Assembly (NCBI RefSeq): GCF_003721245.1
Contig: NZ_RIZG01000001.1
Location: 372,001 to 436,000, forward strand
Direction: 5' to 3'
Length of the DNA: 64,000 nucleotides
Source of the DNA: Marinomonas hwangdonensis
GTDB taxonomy: Bacteria > Pseudomonadota > Gammaproteobacteria > Pseudomonadales > Marinomonadaceae
Within the stretch, counting starts at the first letter, position 1, and each line of letters begins with the position of its first letter. The position numbers were made by a program, and so were the translations under genes. Positions 47,909 to 56,679 of the stretch are shown here, one piece after another. A model generated the notes under the pieces. It had not been told where the DNA came from, made no database searches, and saw nothing but the letters and a program-made list of their open reading frames with translations.

Positions 47909-50095
47909 TTACTTTATAAAATTTGCTTTTCTGGCTTGATGCAGTTTTTTATAGCTTTCGATAAGACGTAAATGCGGTTCAATGCCTTCGAGTTGCATGC
48001 TGGTTTTGCTCAAACCGTAAAAACGTACCTCGCCGGTGACGGAACCCACGACGTTTTCAATAACGTCTTTGCCAAACATACGGCTGAAGTTATGGATAAA
48101 ATCGTCCAGTTCTAGGTCTTCATCTAGGGTGACTTCCAATACGCAATTCATCGCTTGATAGAAGAGACCGCGTTTTGCTGTGTTGTCGTTAAACTGCAGA
48201 AATTCACCCACCAGTTCGAGCGCTTCTTCGTGTTCACCAAGAGCTAAATAGATGAGGATTTTCAGCTCCATGATAGTCAGCTGGCCCCAGACGGTATTGT
48301 CATCGAAGACGATGCCAATCAAGGTGGCAATGTCTGTGTAGTTGTCCAGTTGGCTTTCTTCAAGACGATTCACCAATTTAGCCAGCTGTTTATCACTGAG
48401 TATATGCAGGTTTAAAATGTCTTCGCGATAATCCAGTGCTTTGTTGGTGTTGTCCCACACTAGGTCTTCTACTGGGTAGACTTCGGAATAATCGGGAACC
48501 AGAATCCGACACGCCGAGGCGCCTAAGTCACTAAGTTCGGCAACATACACTTCTTTGCCTAGGTCTTCTAAGATGCCAAATAGGGCGTCAGCCTCTTCTT
48601 GGCTGGTGCCAGAAAAGTCCCATTCACAGAAGTCGTAGTCGTGTTTGCTGCTAAAGAAGCGCCAAGAAATGACGCCTGTTGAGTCAATAAAATGCTCGAC
48701 AAAGTTTTCTGGCTCGGTCACGGCCATGCTGTTAAATGTCGGCTTGGGTATGTCGTTTAAGCCTTCAAAGCTGCGTCCTTGTAATAATTCCGTGAGGCTG
48801 CGTTCTAAGGCCACTTCCAAGCTTGGATGGGCGCCAAATGAGGCAAACACGCCGCCTGTTTTTGGGTTCATTAGGGTGACATTCATCACAGGGAATTGGC
48901 CACCAAGCGAGGCGTCTTTTACCACAATGGGAAAGCCTTGTTCTTCCAATTCTTTGATGCCCGCAAGGATGCTTGGGTATTTTTCCAATACTGCCATTGG
49001 CACATCAGGACAGACAATTTCGTCTTCAATGATTTGGCGTTTAACGGCGCGTTCTAAAATTTCTGACAAACATTGCACTTGCGCTTCTTGCTGATTATTT
49101 CCCGCGCTCATGCCGTTACTTAGAAACAGGTTTTCGATAAGATTCGACGGGAAGTACACCGTTTCGCCATCGGATTGACGTGTATAAGGAATGGTACAAA
49201 TGCCGCGTTTTTTATTGCCAGAATTGGTATCGATCAAGTGCGAGCCGCGAAGCTCGTCGTCTGGGTTATAAATAGCCAAACAGTAGTCGTCTAAGATACC
49301 TTCTGGTAAGGAATCGTCTTTGGTGAGGGCAAACCATTTTTCATTCGGGTAGTGGACAAATTCGCTGTTGGCGATGTCGGTACCAAAGAATTGATCATTG
49401 TAGAAAAAGTTGTTGTTCAAACGCTCAATAAACTCACCCAGAGCGGAACACAGGGCACTTTCTTTGGAGGCGCCTTTGCCATTGGTAAAGCACATAGGCG
49501 ATGCGGCGTCACGAATATGCAGTGACCAAACGTTTGGTACTATATTGCGCCATGAAGAGATTTCAATCTTCATGCCGAGGTCGGCGAGCATGGCGGTCAT
49601 ATTGGCAATGGTTTGCTCTAGTGGTAAGTCTTTACCAAGAATCACTGTACTCGTCGAGCCATCAGGCTGTCCCATCAACATGGCGTTAGCGTCTGCGTCT
49701 AGGTTGTCAACGGTTTCAATTTTAAACTGTGGCCCAGTCTGCACCACTTTTTTTACGGTACAACGATCAATAGAGCGCAAAATGCCTTCACGGTCTTTGT
49801 CAGAAATGTCGTCTGGTAATTCGACTTGAATTTGGAAGATTTGGTTGTAGCGATCTTCTGGATCGACAATGTTGTTTTGTGACAAGCGGATGTTGTCGGT
49901 TGAGATATCACGAGCTTTGCAGTAGACCTTGACAAAATACGCCGCACACAAAGCAGAAGACGCTAAAAAATAATCAAATGGACTGGGCGCAGAGCCATCG
50001 CCTTTGTAACGGATCGGCTGATCGGTAATAACGGTAAAATCGTCAAACTTGGCTTCAAGTCGCAGATTGTCGAGAAAATTAACTTTGATTTCCAT
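47909..50095 (-). CDS. OsmC-YcaO fusion protein
   Basis: A 728-residue fusion. Residues 1-135 form an OsmC-like domain: YKGDGSAPSPFDYFLASSAL, with the family Cys in SALCAAYFVKVYC and SIDRCTVKK. Residues 160-600 form a YcaO domain: GKGASKESALCSALGEFIER, TRQSDGETVYFPSNLIENL, QCLSEILERAVKRQIIEDE and ALERSLTELLQGRSF. The last 130 residues resemble the TPR-like C-terminus of E. coli YcaO. YcaO proteins use ATP to activate amide backbones; E. coli YcaO is linked to beta-methylthiolation of ribosomal protein S12. OsmC domains reduce organic peroxides with paired Cys. The fusion may couple sulfur or redox chemistry to YcaO, which is an inference. Confidence 0.9.
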   Translation of the reverse strand: MEIKVNFLDNLRLEAKFDDFTVITDQPIRYKGDGSAPSPFDYFLASSALCAAYFVKVYCKARDISTDNIRLSQNNIVDPEDRYNQIFQIQVELPDDISDKDREGILRSIDRCTVKKVVQTGPQFKIETVDNLDADANAMLMGQPDGSTSTVILGKDLPLEQTIANMTAMLADLGMKIEISSWRNIVPNVWSLHIRDAASPMCFTNGKGASKESALCSALGEFIERLNNNFFYNDQFFGTDIANSEFVHYPNEKWFALTKDDSLPEGILDDYCLAIYNPDDELRGSHLIDTNSGNKKRGICTIPYTRQSDGETVYFPSNLIENLFLSNGMSAGNNQQEAQVQCLSEILERAVKRQIIEDEIVCPDVPMAVLEKYPSILAGIKELEEQGFPIVVKDASLGGQFPVMNVTLMNPKTGGVFASFGAHPSLEVALERSLTELLQGRSFEGLNDIPKPTFNSMAVTEPENFVEHFIDSTGVISWRFFSSKHDYDFCEWDFSGTSQEEADALFGILEDLGKEVYVAELSDLGASACRILVPDYSEVYPVEDLVWDNTNKALDYREDILNLHILSDKQLAKLVNRLEESQLDNYTDIATLIGIVFDDNTVWGQLTIMELKILIYLALGEHEEALELVGEFLQFNDNTAKRGLFYQAMNCVLEVTLDEDLELDDFIHNFSRMFGKDVIENVVGSVTGEVRFYGLSKTSMQLEGIEPHLRLIESYKKLHQARKANFIK

Positions 50096-52196: not shown

Positions 52197-53519
52197 CTAC
52201 CTTTTTTCGGCTTCGGCTTCGGCTTCGGCTTCGGCTTCGGCTTCGGCTTCGGCTTCGGCTTCGGCTTCGGCTTCGCGTTCTGCTTCTGCGTGTTCTGCTG
52301 CCCAAACTCCAGCGGCTTCAACGGCAACAGGAGACGATGTGGGCGTGACACCAAGGTAGCTTTCAGTTTCTTCCAGAGGAATACTGGCCCGTTGAGTCAT
52401 TCGATATAGGGCATAAATTGCAATCACACCAAAGGTAATGCCAATAACAGGCCAGAAGGCAAAAGGCCCCGCCGTTTGCATGGCCCAGCCTGTCACAAGA
52501 GGCCCACTGATTGCTCCTAAGCCAAAAGTGAAAACCAGTCCGCCAGACGCTGCTGGCATATCTTCGGCGGATAAGGCGTCATTGGTATAAGCCAGAAATA
52601 GTGCATAAAGTGGCGTGGTAACCCCGCCCGCCAAAAAAGCCGCCAGCATGAGTGCATTGATATTGCCTTCTGAAAGCCACCCTATACTGCACGAAGCAGC
52701 GCCCAATACTGATGCCAATAAAATGAGTTTACGTCTATCCATACGGTCAGACAGCCAGCCAATAGGGTATTGCAGCACCAAGGCACCAGCAAACAGCATA
52801 GCCACAAATAAGGCTATCTGCGCTGTGGTTAAACCGATTTGTGCGCCAAACACCGCCCCCATACCCGACTGCGTGGCATAAACACTGCCGAGTAAAAAGA
52901 TACCGACGGTTCCCAGTGGCGAGGCAGAAAAAAGATTGCGAAGATTCATTGGCCGTGCGACTTCAACACTCGGGGCTGGGGTGACAGACAAAAGAATGGG
53001 GGCAAAGGAGACAGACACTAAAATCGAAGCGCCGATAAATAAAGCAGATGTGGCGGCATCCCCTAAGGTTAGCAAGCCCTGAGCCCCAATGATGCCTACT
53101 GTCTGAGCTATCATGTAAGCCGATAAAATCTTGCCACGATTCTCGTTAGTGGCGGCGTAATTTAACCAGCTTTCTGCGGTCACATAGATGCCAGACATGC
53201 AGAAGCCAATTAAAATGCGGAGCAGCGTCCATGCCCAAGGCTCGCTGATCAAAGGGAAAGCGATCAAACCTGCCGACATAAAACTGCCCAATGCCGCAAA
53301 AACTCGAACATGGCCGACGCGTTTTATTAACACTGGTGAAAAGCGCGCACCAGATAAGAAGCCGACAAAATACCCAGAGGTAATGATGGCTAACTCGGTG
53401 GCGCTGAAGCCCTCTATGCCACCGCGAACACCAATCAAAGTAAAATGCATGCCATTACCCAGCATGATAAGCACAATGCCTAATAATAAAGGCCAGACAC
53501 CAGACAACATTTTGACCAT
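52197..53519 (-). CDS. MFS transporter with Ala-Glu repeat tail (YcaD-like)
   Basis: A protein of 440 residues with about 12 hydrophobic helices, resembling the YcaD-type MFS group. Motif A-like SPVLIKRVGHVRVFAALGS and the second GWLSDRMDRRKLILLASV are visible, as is FCMSGIYVTAESWLNYAATN, a stretch typical of that group. The C-terminal 34 or so residues are a charged tail dominated by Ala-Glu pairs, encoded by a hexanucleotide tandem repeat. The frame opens at GTG 53531; ATG 53519 is preferred but neither has a strong ribosome site. Substrate is not known. Confidence 0.88.
   Translation of the reverse strand: MVKMLSGVWPLLLGIVLIMLGNGMHFTLIGVRGGIEGFSATELAIITSGYFVGFLSGARFSPVLIKRVGHVRVFAALGSFMSAGLIAFPLISEPWAWTLLRILIGFCMSGIYVTAESWLNYAATNENRGKILSAYMIAQTVGIIGAQGLLTLGDAATSALFIGASILVSVSFAPILLSVTPAPSVEVARPMNLRNLFSASPLGTVGIFLLGSVYATQSGMGAVFGAQIGLTTAQIALFVAMLFAGALVLQYPIGWLSDRMDRRKLILLASVLGAASCSIGWLSEGNINALMLAAFLAGGVTTPLYALFLAYTNDALSAEDMPAASGGLVFTFGLGAISGPLVTGWAMQTAGPFAFWPVIGITFGVIAIYALYRMTQRASIPLEETESYLGVTPTSSPVAVEAAGVWAAEHAEAEREAEAEAEAEAEAEAEAEAEAEAEKR
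52206..52271. repeat. Hexanucleotide tandem repeat (TTCGGC)11
   Basis: Eleven perfect copies of TTCGGC on the plus strand, followed by one imperfect copy (TTCGCG). On the coding strand each unit is GCC GAA, giving Ala-Glu. The array ends only a few bases from the stop codon of the MFS gene. Loss or gain of units by slippage keeps the frame, so it would change tail length and not switch the gene off. Confidence 0.95.
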
Positions 53520-53684
53520 TTTTCGGCTCACTCGAAAAAAAAGAGGTTAGGAGCGTGTCGTGTCGTTTTAAAAAACGTAAGAATCACGATTCACAATAAG
53601 TGGAAGTGTGTCATGGCCCCAAATCAGAATAAGAGATAAAAGCGTCACCAACGGGGCGTTTAACGACAGCGTTAAGGGAACGCC

Positions 53685-54356
53685 TTAACCTTTTATGTAG
53701 TAGCCCATGCCACGCTTGGTTTTAATTAATGGTGTACAGAAAGGGTCATCAATTTTTTTGCGCAGCCTGCGCATATACACATCCACAATATTGGTTAAAG
53801 GGTCTTGGTGTACTCCCCAAACATTCGCCAGAATACGCTCACGACTGAAAATTCGTTTTGGTGTGTTCATCAGCAATTCTAAAATACTCAGCTCTTTGGC
53901 GGTCAATTCAATCGTCTGATCGGCTCTTGTTACCTGCATAGTATCCAAACACAGTGATAAATCTCCCACTTGAAGAGCCCGGTGGCTACTTTCTACATGG
54001 TCGCGGCGATATAAAGCGTCTAAACGAGCTAGCAATTCATCAAAATGAAAGGGTTTACCAAGGTAATCGTCGGCGCCTGTTTGTAGGCCCTTAATGCGTT
54101 CGTCCACATCACTCAATGCGGACAACATTAAAATACGCACCTTAATGCCAGCCGAGCGGATTTCTTTACACAGGGTTAAACCGTCGATATTGGGCAACAT
54201 GCGATCTAAGATAATCACATCCAGCTCACAGCTTTTTATGGTGTTAAGTGCGTATTGACCATCATTTAAAACGTGAATTTGATGACCTTCTGCGGTTAAT
54301 CCTCGTTCGATAAAACTGGCTACTCGGACATCGTCTTCAATTAATAAAATTCTCAT
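53685..54356 (-). CDS. OmpR-family response regulator
   Basis: A 223-residue transcription regulator. The receiver has the acidic pair in LLIEDDVRV, Asp51 in VIILDRMLPNIDG and Lys in YLGKPFHFDELLARLDAL. The winged-helix DNA-binding domain has ELTAKELSILELLMNTPKRI and the recognition-helix part TNIVDVYMRRLRKKI. The ATG overlaps the stop of the kinase gene upstream (ATGA at 54353-54356). Targets are not known; the nearest divergent gene at 56110 is the obvious candidate. Confidence 0.94.
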   Translation of the reverse strand: MRILLIEDDVRVASFIERGLTAEGHQIHVLNDGQYALNTIKSCELDVIILDRMLPNIDGLTLCKEIRSAGIKVRILMLSALSDVDERIKGLQTGADDYLGKPFHFDELLARLDALYRRDHVESSHRALQVGDLSLCLDTMQVTRADQTIELTAKELSILELLMNTPKRIFSRERILANVWGVHQDPLTNIVDVYMRRLRKKIDDPFCTPLIKTKRGMGYYIKG

Positions 54357-55951
54357 ATATCACCGTCCTCCTCTAAGGGAAAGGTTAGGTATGCCGTGGT
54401 GCCGATTTGAGTTTGGCTCGTTAACACAATACAGCCGCCTAGTTGTTGGCAGATGCTATGGGCGAGAGTCAGTCCTATGCCTAAACCATCAGGTCGCGCA
54501 CGTTTACCGTTTTCGGCGCGAAAATAACGCTGAAAAATATGCGGTAAATCGTCTGCTTGTATGCCAATACCCTGATCGTATAACTGAATCTGCCACTGTG
54601 ACTCTAAAATAGTCAGAGTCAGGCTAAGAGGGTGTTTTTGGGGATCGTAGCGCAGTGCATTATCGACGATAATTCTAATTACCATCAGTAACTTGTCTAG
54701 GTCCATATAAGCGTTAAGGTGTTCCCAATGGGAATGGTTTGGTGCTTCTATGCGTAATTCAACCTGCTGTGGTTTGACTAACAGCTGGGCTTGCCGAACC
54801 ACAGCGTGCCATAGGGCTTGTAATGACATAGCCACACGTGTTGGTTGGAACAGTTTCTCGTCATGACGAACCAGCATAAGTAAATCTTCTATTCGATACG
54901 CTAAATACCCTGCGGACTCGTTGATGCGCTGCAATGCTTGTTGGTATTCCATTGGGCTGTTGTTGGGGTTGCGCAAAGTTACTTGCGCTTCACCTAGAAT
55001 AGCCGTGGCTGGCGTGCGCAGTTCATGACTCACATTGGCAAAAAACTCTTTTTGCTGGTGTTTGGCCTTTTCTAAGCTTTCTAAGGCTTGCGCTAGAGCT
55101 TCGGTACGCGCCTCGACTTCGGTTTCGATTAACTGGCGTGAGCTTAGCTCTTGCTTTTGTGCTTGCTCTAGACTCACTGCCATGTGGTTGAAATGTTTCG
55201 CAAGGATTTTTAACTCAGTTGGGCCGCTTTCTTCAATGCGATGGCTCAAGTTGCCTTGCTCAATGGCCGTGGTACTTTGCACTAAGGCGGCTAAGGGCTT
55301 GGACAAGGTACGCAACAACCAAACTCCCAACATGGCCCCTAAAAGTACCCCGATAGACGCCAAGCTCAGCACCACGATTTTTAGCATAGAGAGGGCATCA
55401 ACCGCAGTTTGCTCATAGCGTTCGGTGCGTTCTTTTTGCAGCGTAATGGCTTGATCAATCAGTTGTCGAAGATCGGTATCTTCAACACGATCAAAGGTTT
55501 GGCTTATTAGGGTCCAGCCATCATCATCGGAATGTATTTTGGCGATATCCCAAGAGCGTAAGGCATTTTTTAAGCGTTCTAAGTTTGTTTCAAATAAGTA
55601 GATCACCTTTATTTGTTGCGTTATCTCAGCAAAATCTTGTGTTGTTAGGCTGTGTTGCTGGGCTTGTGCGGTAAGTTGGTTTAACTGGCTGAGCAGATTG
55701 TCTAAGGTTTGAAAGCGGACATCACGCTTTAAGGTGCTACCATCTTTCAGTAACAAATATTCCGCTAGCCAGATTTTTAATTGTTGCTTTTCCGTACCCA
55801 GTTGCATCAGGTGCTGAAGAATTTGATTGGATGTTTGGCCACGTTGAATGTGATCGGTTGCTACTTTATTTGACCAATAGGCCGCACCAGCTTGAGCCAG
55901 GATAAATGATAATAACAGGGCCAGTACCAACGACAGTTTGTAGCGAAACAC
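54353..55951 (-). CDS. Sensor histidine kinase with HAMP domain
   Basis: A 532-residue membrane kinase. TM1 is at about 6-26, followed by a helical periplasmic part (about 27-190) with no named domain, then TM2 (about 192-214) and HAMP (LSKPLAALVQSTTAIEQGNL, IEESGPTELKILAKHFNHM). A coiled coil leads to the HisKA motif with His309 in FFANVSHELRTPATAILGE. The ATPase domain has N-box IRIIVDNALRYD, G1 YDQGIGIQADD and G2 PDGLGIGLTLAH. The response regulator overlaps its stop. It starts 158 bases from the divergent secreted-protein gene at 56110. Confidence 0.92.
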   Translation of the reverse strand: MFRYKLSLVLALLLSFILAQAGAAYWSNKVATDHIQRGQTSNQILQHLMQLGTEKQQLKIWLAEYLLLKDGSTLKRDVRFQTLDNLLSQLNQLTAQAQQHSLTTQDFAEITQQIKVIYLFETNLERLKNALRSWDIAKIHSDDDGWTLISQTFDRVEDTDLRQLIDQAITLQKERTERYEQTAVDALSMLKIVVLSLASIGVLLGAMLGVWLLRTLSKPLAALVQSTTAIEQGNLSHRIEESGPTELKILAKHFNHMAVSLEQAQKQELSSRQLIETEVEARTEALAQALESLEKAKHQQKEFFANVSHELRTPATAILGEAQVTLRNPNNSPMEYQQALQRINESAGYLAYRIEDLLMLVRHDEKLFQPTRVAMSLQALWHAVVRQAQLLVKPQQVELRIEAPNHSHWEHLNAYMDLDKLLMVIRIIVDNALRYDPQKHPLSLTLTILESQWQIQLYDQGIGIQADDLPHIFQRYFRAENGKRARPDGLGIGLTLAHSICQQLGGCIVLTSQTQIGTTAYLTFPLEEDGDI

Positions 55952-56109
55952 ATTTATCTCCAGCCAACCAAGTTTGAATATTCAGCAGAGTAAACGATTC
56001 CGCTATCAGCGGTAAACACTGTTCATCTGAGGTTAATCTTAGGCGCCTATTGAAATTCAGAATGTACGGGTAGATTAAAGACTCATCCATCCAAACATAG
56101 GGTCTTATT

Positions 56110-56679
56110 ATGAAACACGTTAAAAATGCATTGGCCATTTCAGCATTGCTTGGCGCTACTTTTTTTTCATTCAATGCGATTGCCGCGGATACGGTAGTCA
56201 ATAACTCTATTAGCCATCAAGACGTATTAAAGGCGCAGCAGGCGTGGGTAGATGCTCTAATCAAAATCAGTCAGACCTATGAAAAGCAAGGTCATGCCGC
56301 GGCCAAAACCCTGGCCCAGCAAGTATTGGATCAAGCTTATGGCTACAAACAAGGCGCGGTATTATTTAAGCCAACGTTAGCCAGTGGCGAAAAGACCTTC
56401 CGTACTGATTCCGCCGGCGCACTGTCTTATTTTGTTGGAAAAAACTCCGATTACCCACTGGATACGGGCTTTGCTTTAAAAGACTGGCAGCAGTTTAGCT
56501 TTAATAACGCGGCGGTTTACTTGAACGGCGATATCGCCTTGACCATGGGGCATGTAAAGGTCACGAACAGCAAAGGACAAGAAACCCTTGTTGATAAGAG
56601 TTGGGCGTTTAAAAAAGACGAGCAGGGGAATCTTCGTATTGTACTGCACCATTCCTCTTTGCCATATCAGGCAAACTAA
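56110..56679 (+). CDS. Small secreted protein, SnoaL-like fold
   Basis: A 189-residue exported protein. The signal peptide MKHVKNALAISALLGATF is followed by cleavage near FNAIAA-DTV. The mature part has a helical start (HQDVLKAQQAWVDALIKISQ) and a beta-rich end (NAAVYLNGDIALTMGHVKV, KSWAFKKDEQGNLRIVLHHS) of the SnoaL/NTF2-like cone type. Family members in databases often carry the name 'phosphoribosyl-AMP cyclohydrolase', but no HisI metal motif is present and that name should not be trusted. It is divergent from the two-component system, which may control it. A strong bidirectional terminator follows. Confidence 0.75.
   Translation: MKHVKNALAISALLGATFFSFNAIAADTVVNNSISHQDVLKAQQAWVDALIKISQTYEKQGHAAAKTLAQQVLDQAYGYKQGAVLFKPTLASGEKTFRTDSAGALSYFVGKNSDYPLDTGFALKDWQQFSFNNAAVYLNGDIALTMGHVKVTNSKGQETLVDKSWAFKKDEQGNLRIVLHHSSLPYQAN

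Follow-up and report, generated by a model that had tools for sequence, protein, structure and literature searches.

A two-component system and a conserved TTCAT repeat beside a predicted periplasmic iota-carbonic anhydrase gene in Marinomonas hwangdonensis

Which gene does a two-component system control, and in response to what, when it is encoded divergently from a small protein that appears to be secreted? We addressed this question in a stretch of 64,000 nucleotides from Marinomonas hwangdonensis (contig NZ_RIZG01000001.1, forward-strand positions 372,001 to 436,000; hereafter the window, with position 1 as its first letter). Here an OmpR/PhoB-type response regulator of 223 residues (53685-54356, minus strand) and a sensor histidine kinase of 532 residues with a GTG start (54353-55951, minus strand) are encoded by genes that overlap by 4 bases, and a gap of 158 bases (55952-56109) separates the kinase gene from a divergent gene for a protein of 189 residues (56110-56679, plus strand), a homologue of COG4337-type iota-carbonic anhydrases that is predicted to be periplasmic. 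The first-pass annotation of this DNA had described an overlapping kinase-regulator pair that shares a 158-base region with a divergent reading frame, and each of these elements was borne out. We conclude that the three genes very probably form one module, in which the regulator binds an array of TTCAT half-sites and controls the carbonic anhydrase gene. Gene identities, gene association, and conservation of the site were established by computation; control of the enzyme gene by the regulator is suggested because the association survives changes in gene order and exchange of the enzyme type, and because the site is conserved.

The divergent gene had been taken to encode a secreted SnoaL-like protein. 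Its signal-peptide-like start, judged by eye, stands; its SnoaL membership was rejected, since a Pfam scan returned nothing above threshold and no SnoaL model at E 0.1 (two COG4875-type relatives that we scanned, unlike the window enzyme, matched SnoaL_2 and SnoaL_3 above cut-off). The sole strong family was the NCBIfam metal-independent carbonic anhydrase NF047901 (E = 6.8e-66), and phmmer searches against solved iota-carbonic anhydrases gave E = 1.2e-55 for 7c5v and E = 3.4e-74 for 7c5x. The alignment with 7c5v, which is all2909 of Anabaena, has no gaps and shows identity at 85 of 161 residues (53%), and a single offset places T89, Y107, H180, and S182 of the enzyme on T106, Y124, H197, and S199 of all2909. 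According to the part of PMC8132391 available, mutants show these four residues of all2909 to be needed for activity, most bacterial COG4337 proteins have a signal peptide, and the two members assayed hydrated CO2 without a metal and had no obvious dehydration activity. The window enzyme resembles all2909 as described there in identity, in the four essential residues, in having a single domain, and in its signal-peptide-like start; it differs in being predicted from sequence, in scoring below the NF047901 cut-off, and in lying beside a two-component system. An AlphaFold model of the enzyme (predicted local distance difference test, pLDDT, 61) was set aside in favor of the 53% identity to 7c5v. 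We infer that the protein looks like a metal-free periplasmic carbonic anhydrase.

The association of the three genes recurs in other genomes. A search of genome contigs with the enzyme gave five loci with close relatives. The same divergent trio is found in Vibrio anguillarum, V. injensis, and V. metschnikovii (regulators 74-79% and kinases 65-70% identical), whose kinase start agrees with the GTG start in the window, and in Aliidiomarina iranensis the trio is arranged tail-to-tail (regulator 54% and kinase 29% identical); the V. ordalii contig starts inside the enzyme gene, and that locus was left out of the counts. Plasmid searches returned 27 records for the enzyme and 12 for the kinase (at 1e-45), which overlap at seven Agrobacterium records, and 5 of the 12 kinase records were without a COG4337 match. 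Sixteen of the 27 records were examined (one, L120, is without a real match), and in six of them the regulator and enzyme genes are no more than 75 bases apart, always tail-to-tail: three Agrobacterium species, Peteryoungia, Paracoccus aestuarii, and Rhizobium etli 8C-3, the last with a partial regulator match and no kinase detected. Agarilytica has an enzyme-kinase-regulator row with a second kinase type, which we treated as an outgroup (Agarilytica, G080, and G402). The kinases of Rhizobium leguminosarum and Phyllobacterium, which have a sensor of another kind and no iota-carbonic anhydrase annotated in the stretches examined, were also used as outgroups.

The kinase is associated with a second enzyme type as well. 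In Cupriavidus sp. EM10 and two Variovorax records a COG4875-type gene comes after the kinase. In Cupriavidus and one Variovorax record, the kinase-regulator pair is followed by a secreted protein of 165 residues that ends in HHHSSAMPE, matches SgcJ/EcaC TIGR02246 above cut-off, and was assigned to the COG4875 iota-carbonic anhydrases by its HHSS motif and by the description in the part of PMC8132391 available; in the second Variovorax record, a protein with 98.8% identity to it is encoded about 800 bases away from the kinase. These COG4875 (SgcJ/EcaC-like) enzymes share with the window's system the kinase subfamily of their partner (in Cupriavidus, Variovorax, and four further genomes) and have an HHSS-type C-terminal motif, but they belong to another domain family and are not of the window's type. 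In Cupriavidus sp. EM10 the regulator gene is read in two frames (L105, 5795-6297), a frameshift or sequencing error.

We then searched with a profile of 12 sensor regions (ten COG4337-linked and two COG4875-linked) alone, scoring the best 7 (phylum) or best 20 (family) candidates per genome, so that the match counts are lower bounds. Across 398 genomes of the phylum (at 1e-6), at least four kinases matched: that of the window, that of G1268 (COG4875 gene after the regulator), that of G1086 (no iota-carbonic anhydrase nearby), and one weak match (G930, E = 3.9e-7). Across 150 genomes of the G1268 family (at 1e-20), at least 19 matched, G1268 and G1086 among them, and 15 of these kinases have an iota-carbonic anhydrase gene within about 2 kb (11 COG4337, 4 COG4875), in divergent, kinase-regulator-enzyme, enzyme-kinase-regulator, and tail-to-tail orders; the enzyme is about 2 kb from the regulator at L152 and closer at the other 14. 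On the kinase tree, COG4875 partnership must change three times, and well-supported branches force two of these changes; exchange or loss of partners therefore happened on more than one occasion.

The strongest conserved element of the gap, which the first-pass annotation passed over, is TTCATCTGAGGTTAAT at 56022-56037 (plus strand), an 11-bp direct repeat of the form TTCAT-CTGAGG-TTAAT about midway between both start codons, which we propose as the regulator box. Such a box is expected by chance in 0.7% of gaps like that of the window. The longest block conserved between the window and the three Vibrio gaps is TTCATCTkARGTTAATCTwmG, and a candidate further half-site, TTCA, lies 34 bases after the box start (56056-56059, plus strand) and reads TTCAT in the three Vibrio. 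The earlier proposal that the regulator controls the secreted gene thereby gains strong comparative support, and the likely site differs from the one then proposed, being TTCAT-N6-TTAAT with a period of one helical turn.

To see how widely the box occurs, we searched for TT[AC]AT-N6-TT[AC]AT within 300 bases upstream of enzyme genes. The 30 linked regions (24 COG4337 and 6 COG4875) comprise 28 with this kinase type or its regulator and 2 with the second type (L062 and L130), and include L152 as well as L103, where the regulator match is partial and the enzyme match broken up. The 59 unlinked entries represent 52 distinct upstream regions, and include six COG4875 entries, two of which read a COG4337 place for a second time, as well as L122, L131, and L133, which lie beside another kind of signaling row. 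The strict box is present in 22 of the 30 linked loci (shuffles: mean 0.09, maximum 1, 300 rounds). Gaps of 2-5 and 7-12 bases in place of 6 gave 0 or 1 box among linked loci, so only the 11-bp phase is special. With one mismatch allowed, the box is found in 29 of 30 linked (shuffle mean 1.4) vs. 10 of 59 unlinked regions, and allowing one mismatch recovers seven of the eight linked loci that lack the strict box (shuffles of these loci: mean 0.38, maximum 3). The box came to light in the window, the three Vibrio loci, and Aliidiomarina, so these five loci provide no independent test; after their removal, 17 of 25 linked loci retain the strict box. Elsewhere in the same loci, 8 boxes occur in 368 kb, and the base composition of the loci with conserved association and site extends from AT-rich up to 70% GC.

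In a profile built from 20 of the 30 linked loci, further half-sites appear at about +22 and +33, which had not been selected for, with T at +34 in 20 of 20. The profile left out L146 and L152 (site not clearly intergenic or enzyme far away), L145 and L154 (exact box on the other strand), L144 (two mismatches), and the near-copies L006, L004, L098, L100, and L103. The full operator looks like an array of up to four half-sites; in the window we recognize the first, the second, and, in shifted position, the fourth (TTCA at 56056), but not the third. As a separate observation, enzyme genes at L071, L086, L070, and L104 are without an adjacent system of this kind yet have a TTCAT-like box upstream, and the genome of L071 (G402) encodes a second-type kinase at another place.

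The site originally proposed in the gap (55990-56017, plus strand) consisted of a TAAAC pair 22 bases apart (55991 and 56013) flanking the palindrome CCGCT-ATC-AGCGG (56000-56012). Both are present as described. In 1000 dinucleotide shuffles of the gap, a 5-mer repeat at exactly 22 bases arose in 11% and a comparable inverted repeat (5 bp with a loop of 3-8 bases) in 51%, and taken alone the motif does not rise above chance. We rejected the palindrome as an operator, as it is unconserved in Vibrio and half of the shuffles contain a similar one. The three Vibrio loci that share this gene arrangement have TAAGC in place of the first TAAAC, and the 22-base spacing is retained because GTAARCGAT and GGTAAA are conserved; GTAARC/GTAAA is thus kept in these gaps at the same spacing as in the window, and the TAAAC pair may represent weak extra half-sites.

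How many genes the regulator might serve was gauged with a longer pattern, TTMATCTNNNGTTMAT. In the window's genome it has three matches, one at this enzyme gene, one inside an open reading frame of 766 codons, and one upstream of an open reading frame of 241 codons; the reversed control has none. This suggests a small regulon, with no sign of a large one. Among 36 kinase upstream regions, 10 have an exact box, 7 of which point away from the kinase and are the enzyme-side box. The box points to the kinase in 3 of the 36 (L145, L153, and L154), 53-62 bases before the kinase, which allows for, but does not establish, autoregulation of the kinase gene.

Several findings weigh against a dedicated module of this kind. 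The enzyme scored 221.6 bits with NF047901, short of the naming cut-off of 350 bits, which was reached in none of the 369 genomes of the class and none of the 398 of the phylum in our two surveys; we file it only as a COG4337-type homologue and not under NF047901. COG4337 genes were found in 13 of the 369 and 15 of the 398 genomes, in 13 of 296 genomes of the V. injensis family, in 14 of 197 of the Aliidiomarina order, and in 3 of 56 relatives including the window's own genome, and among the survey loci examined besides the window, the three Vibrio, and Aliidiomarina, an OmpR-type pair lies within 1.8 kb only at G080. A two-component system next to the gene is lacking for most iota-carbonic anhydrase genes examined, which means that the enzyme can do without it. 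The sensor profile leans to the COG4337 group, as 10 of its 12 sensors are linked to COG4337, and 4 of the at least 19 family matches have no iota-carbonic anhydrase in the examined stretch (one has a COG4337 gene 7-9 kb away; three have none in the genome). The strict box also precedes 5 of the 59 unlinked entries, four of them distinct (shuffle mean 0.80). The longer pattern is only weakly specific genome-wide: in V. anguillarum it occurs once, at the enzyme gene, with two matches to the reversed control; in V. injensis the reversed control has one match; and in Aliidiomarina its three matches all lie away from the enzyme gene, whose box is without CT. Scans for sigma-70 promoters and terminators found no site in the gap, and with no promoter recognized at the site, activation by the regulator is a guess.

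The boxes at the five unlinked entries would also suit a neighborhood that is inherited baggage, with the site belonging to some other regulator, as would the carbonic anhydrase tree, which needs only 7 changes between linked and unlinked labels (shuffled mean 19.7), so that part of the association is plain descent. We nevertheless regard this explanation as very improbable, since association and site persist through repeated changes of gene order, whatever the enzyme type, and in loci that vary from AT-rich to 70% GC.

If the three genes are a module, the kinase would read a periplasmic condition through its sensor and phosphorylate the OmpR-type regulator, which would bind the half-site array in 11-bp phase (56022-56037, probably with weaker flanking copies) and switch the divergent carbonic anhydrase gene, most likely by activating it, whereupon CO2 in the periplasm would be hydrated by the enzyme without a metal. 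Binding to the box, activation, the signal, and the enzymatic activity are all steps that we infer. The likeliest signal would be CO2, bicarbonate, or acidity, and the next a shortage of metal.

The kinase has HAMP, HisKA, and HATPase_c domains (Pfam) and, judged by visual inspection of its sequence and of the model helices, two membrane spans. Its periplasmic sensor part, with putative borders at about residues 28-187 (55391-55870, minus strand), is predicted to be a four-helix bundle (AlphaFold2 with five sequences, pLDDT 78, predicted template modeling score 0.61). Across 12 aligned sensors L58 and W61 are invariant and K55 is nearly so. Structural matches to the model from Foldseek and VIA included NarQ, Tsr, Tar, and QseE, with NarQ as the top Foldseek match (E = 2.1e-4); in VIA-align, NarQ (5iji) gave Z = 13.1 over 214 aligned residues (root mean square deviation 2.9) and the best designed bundle Z = 15.1. 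As designed helical bundles score level with or above NarQ, the match gives the fold and not the ligand. The nitrate sensors NarQ and NarX have a nitrate-binding P-box arginine and a NarL-type partner. The window kinase resembles NarQ/NarX, Tsr, and Tar in the predicted fold of its sensor, but the identity is about 15%, the match is that of a generic bundle, and the kinase is of the HisKA type with an OmpR-type partner. Nitrate and bicarbonate are both flat trigonal anions, and this likeness in shape makes bicarbonate an attractive guess as the ligand, no more. A search of a phage collection gave one weak, partial kinase match.

We hold it possible, though tentatively, that this is a proteobacterial system for sensing CO2 or bicarbonate, in which the four-helix-bundle kinase responds in the periplasm either to bicarbonate, by binding it, or to acidity linked to CO2, and adjusts through the TTCAT array the amount of whichever enzyme type, COG4337 or COG4875, a genome encodes. 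Two dissimilar enzyme types under one sensor subfamily are what a sensor of substrate or product would predict. The same pairing bears on the earlier suggestion that the secreted protein is a signal partner of the kinase, for which we found no direct support. An enzyme that doubles as an accessory protein, binding the sensor and tuning the signal, would fit the periplasmic location of both proteins and the presence of QseE, which works with the partner lipoprotein QseG, among the structural matches. It appears improbable, given that those matches are generic for helical bundles and that one sensor subfamily pairs with two iota-carbonic anhydrase types of very different sequence, which makes shared chemistry likelier than shared protein contact.

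The regulator has a receiver and a Trans_reg_C domain (Pfam Response_reg and Trans_reg_C), as expected of the OmpR/PhoB family. Its DNA-binding stretch DPLTNIVDVYMRRLR is nearly invariant among linked systems, and the near-invariant DPLTN(V/I)VDVY stretch that they have in common in this domain is consistent with one shared target sequence. The best-scoring NCBIfam family is that of the CopR/CzcR/SilR regulators (cztR_silR_copR, TIGR01387; 208.9 bits), yet the score is below the cut-off of 279.2 bits, and no metal resistance genes were identified beside the window regulator.

This nearest model, below cut-off as it is, belongs to a heavy-metal family and leads to a different signal, namely a shortage of zinc or another metal under which a metal-free enzyme replaces zinc carbonic anhydrases. 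Beta-class carbonic anhydrases are zinc enzymes, and the genome of the window has one beta-class gene at another place; COG4337 genes also lie on five plasmids in a zinc-starvation setting. We consider a metal signal rather unlikely. Those five plasmid loci are without this two-component system beside the enzyme, a scan of seven window proteins identified none encoded by a metal-transport gene, the conserved sensor residues are not typical metal ligands, and the systems of Cupriavidus and Variovorax pair with the COG4875 class, for which the part of PMC8132391 available reports or suggests metal binding.

The module was probably acquired horizontally. In the enzyme and kinase trees the window genes fall inside or beside Vibrio with strong support, but the trees disagree on the nearest species: the enzyme tree points to V. 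anguillarum, the kinase tree to V. injensis and V. metschnikovii. A COG4337 gene is present in only 1 of the 34 other congeners searched; it is 44% identical, belongs to another clade, and is without this system.

The pho and tor boxes are OmpR-family operators of tandem direct repeats at about one helical turn, and the tor box (CTGTTCATAT) presumably resembles CTGTTCAT of the window box. The operator proposed here differs in its 11-bp phase and in often having four half-sites. A search of the open-access literature in PMC, judged for most papers by the title and the opening of the abstract, found no description of a two-component system for an iota- or periplasmic carbonic anhydrase, and in the part of an iota-carbonic anhydrase review available (PMC8425729) the words "two-component" and "operon" are absent. 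The evidence points to a dedicated, so far undescribed control system for an iota-carbonic anhydrase. These enzymes have been recognized only recently, and their role and control in bacteria are largely open. A dedicated sensor-regulator pair with a predictable operator offers a direct means of learning when bacteria make use of a metal-free carbonic anhydrase in the periplasm, and may show how they sense CO2 or bicarbonate outside the cytoplasm. The sensor profile and the TTCAT array together could also serve as a marker for naming hypothetical genes of both enzyme subtypes. Plasmid homologues of the enzyme (L098, L101, L123-L127, and L130) are annotated as "hypothetical protein" or "phosphoribosyl-AMP cyclohydrolase," the latter of which looks like a naming error.

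The five plasmids in a zinc setting are from Paracoccus seriniphilus (L124), Phaeobacter (L125), Sagittula (L126), Thioclava (L127), and Sphingomonas (L128). Their COG4337 genes are accompanied by at least one of the following: GTP-binding proteins (probably COG0523), thrS, DUF1826, zinc ATP-binding cassette transporter genes, and a transcriptional repressor. These loci look like zinc-starvation clusters that include a metal-free carbonic anhydrase. PMC2770081, in the part available, describes this cluster type and lists a gamma-class carbonic anhydrase and other paralogues for it; the string COG4337 is absent from its main text.

Another three-gene signaling row, of a histidine kinase, a response regulator, and a second ATP-binding or PAS protein, is present at L122, L131, and L133. 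It is divergent from a COG4337 gene in Asticcacaulis (L122) and from COG4875-type genes in Agrobacterium tumefaciens LN-1 (L131) and Phyllobacterium zundukense (L133), and is possibly a second two-component link to both iota-carbonic anhydrase types.

Elsewhere in the window, the 3' end of a major facilitator superfamily transporter gene (52197-53531) contains a 13.5-copy array of the hexamer TTCGGC (52206-52286), which encodes an Ala-Glu repeat tail whose length would be altered in frame by a change in copy number. A protein of 728 residues (47909-50095) has what we take, by eye, to be an OsmC-like N-terminus fused to a YcaO-like domain.

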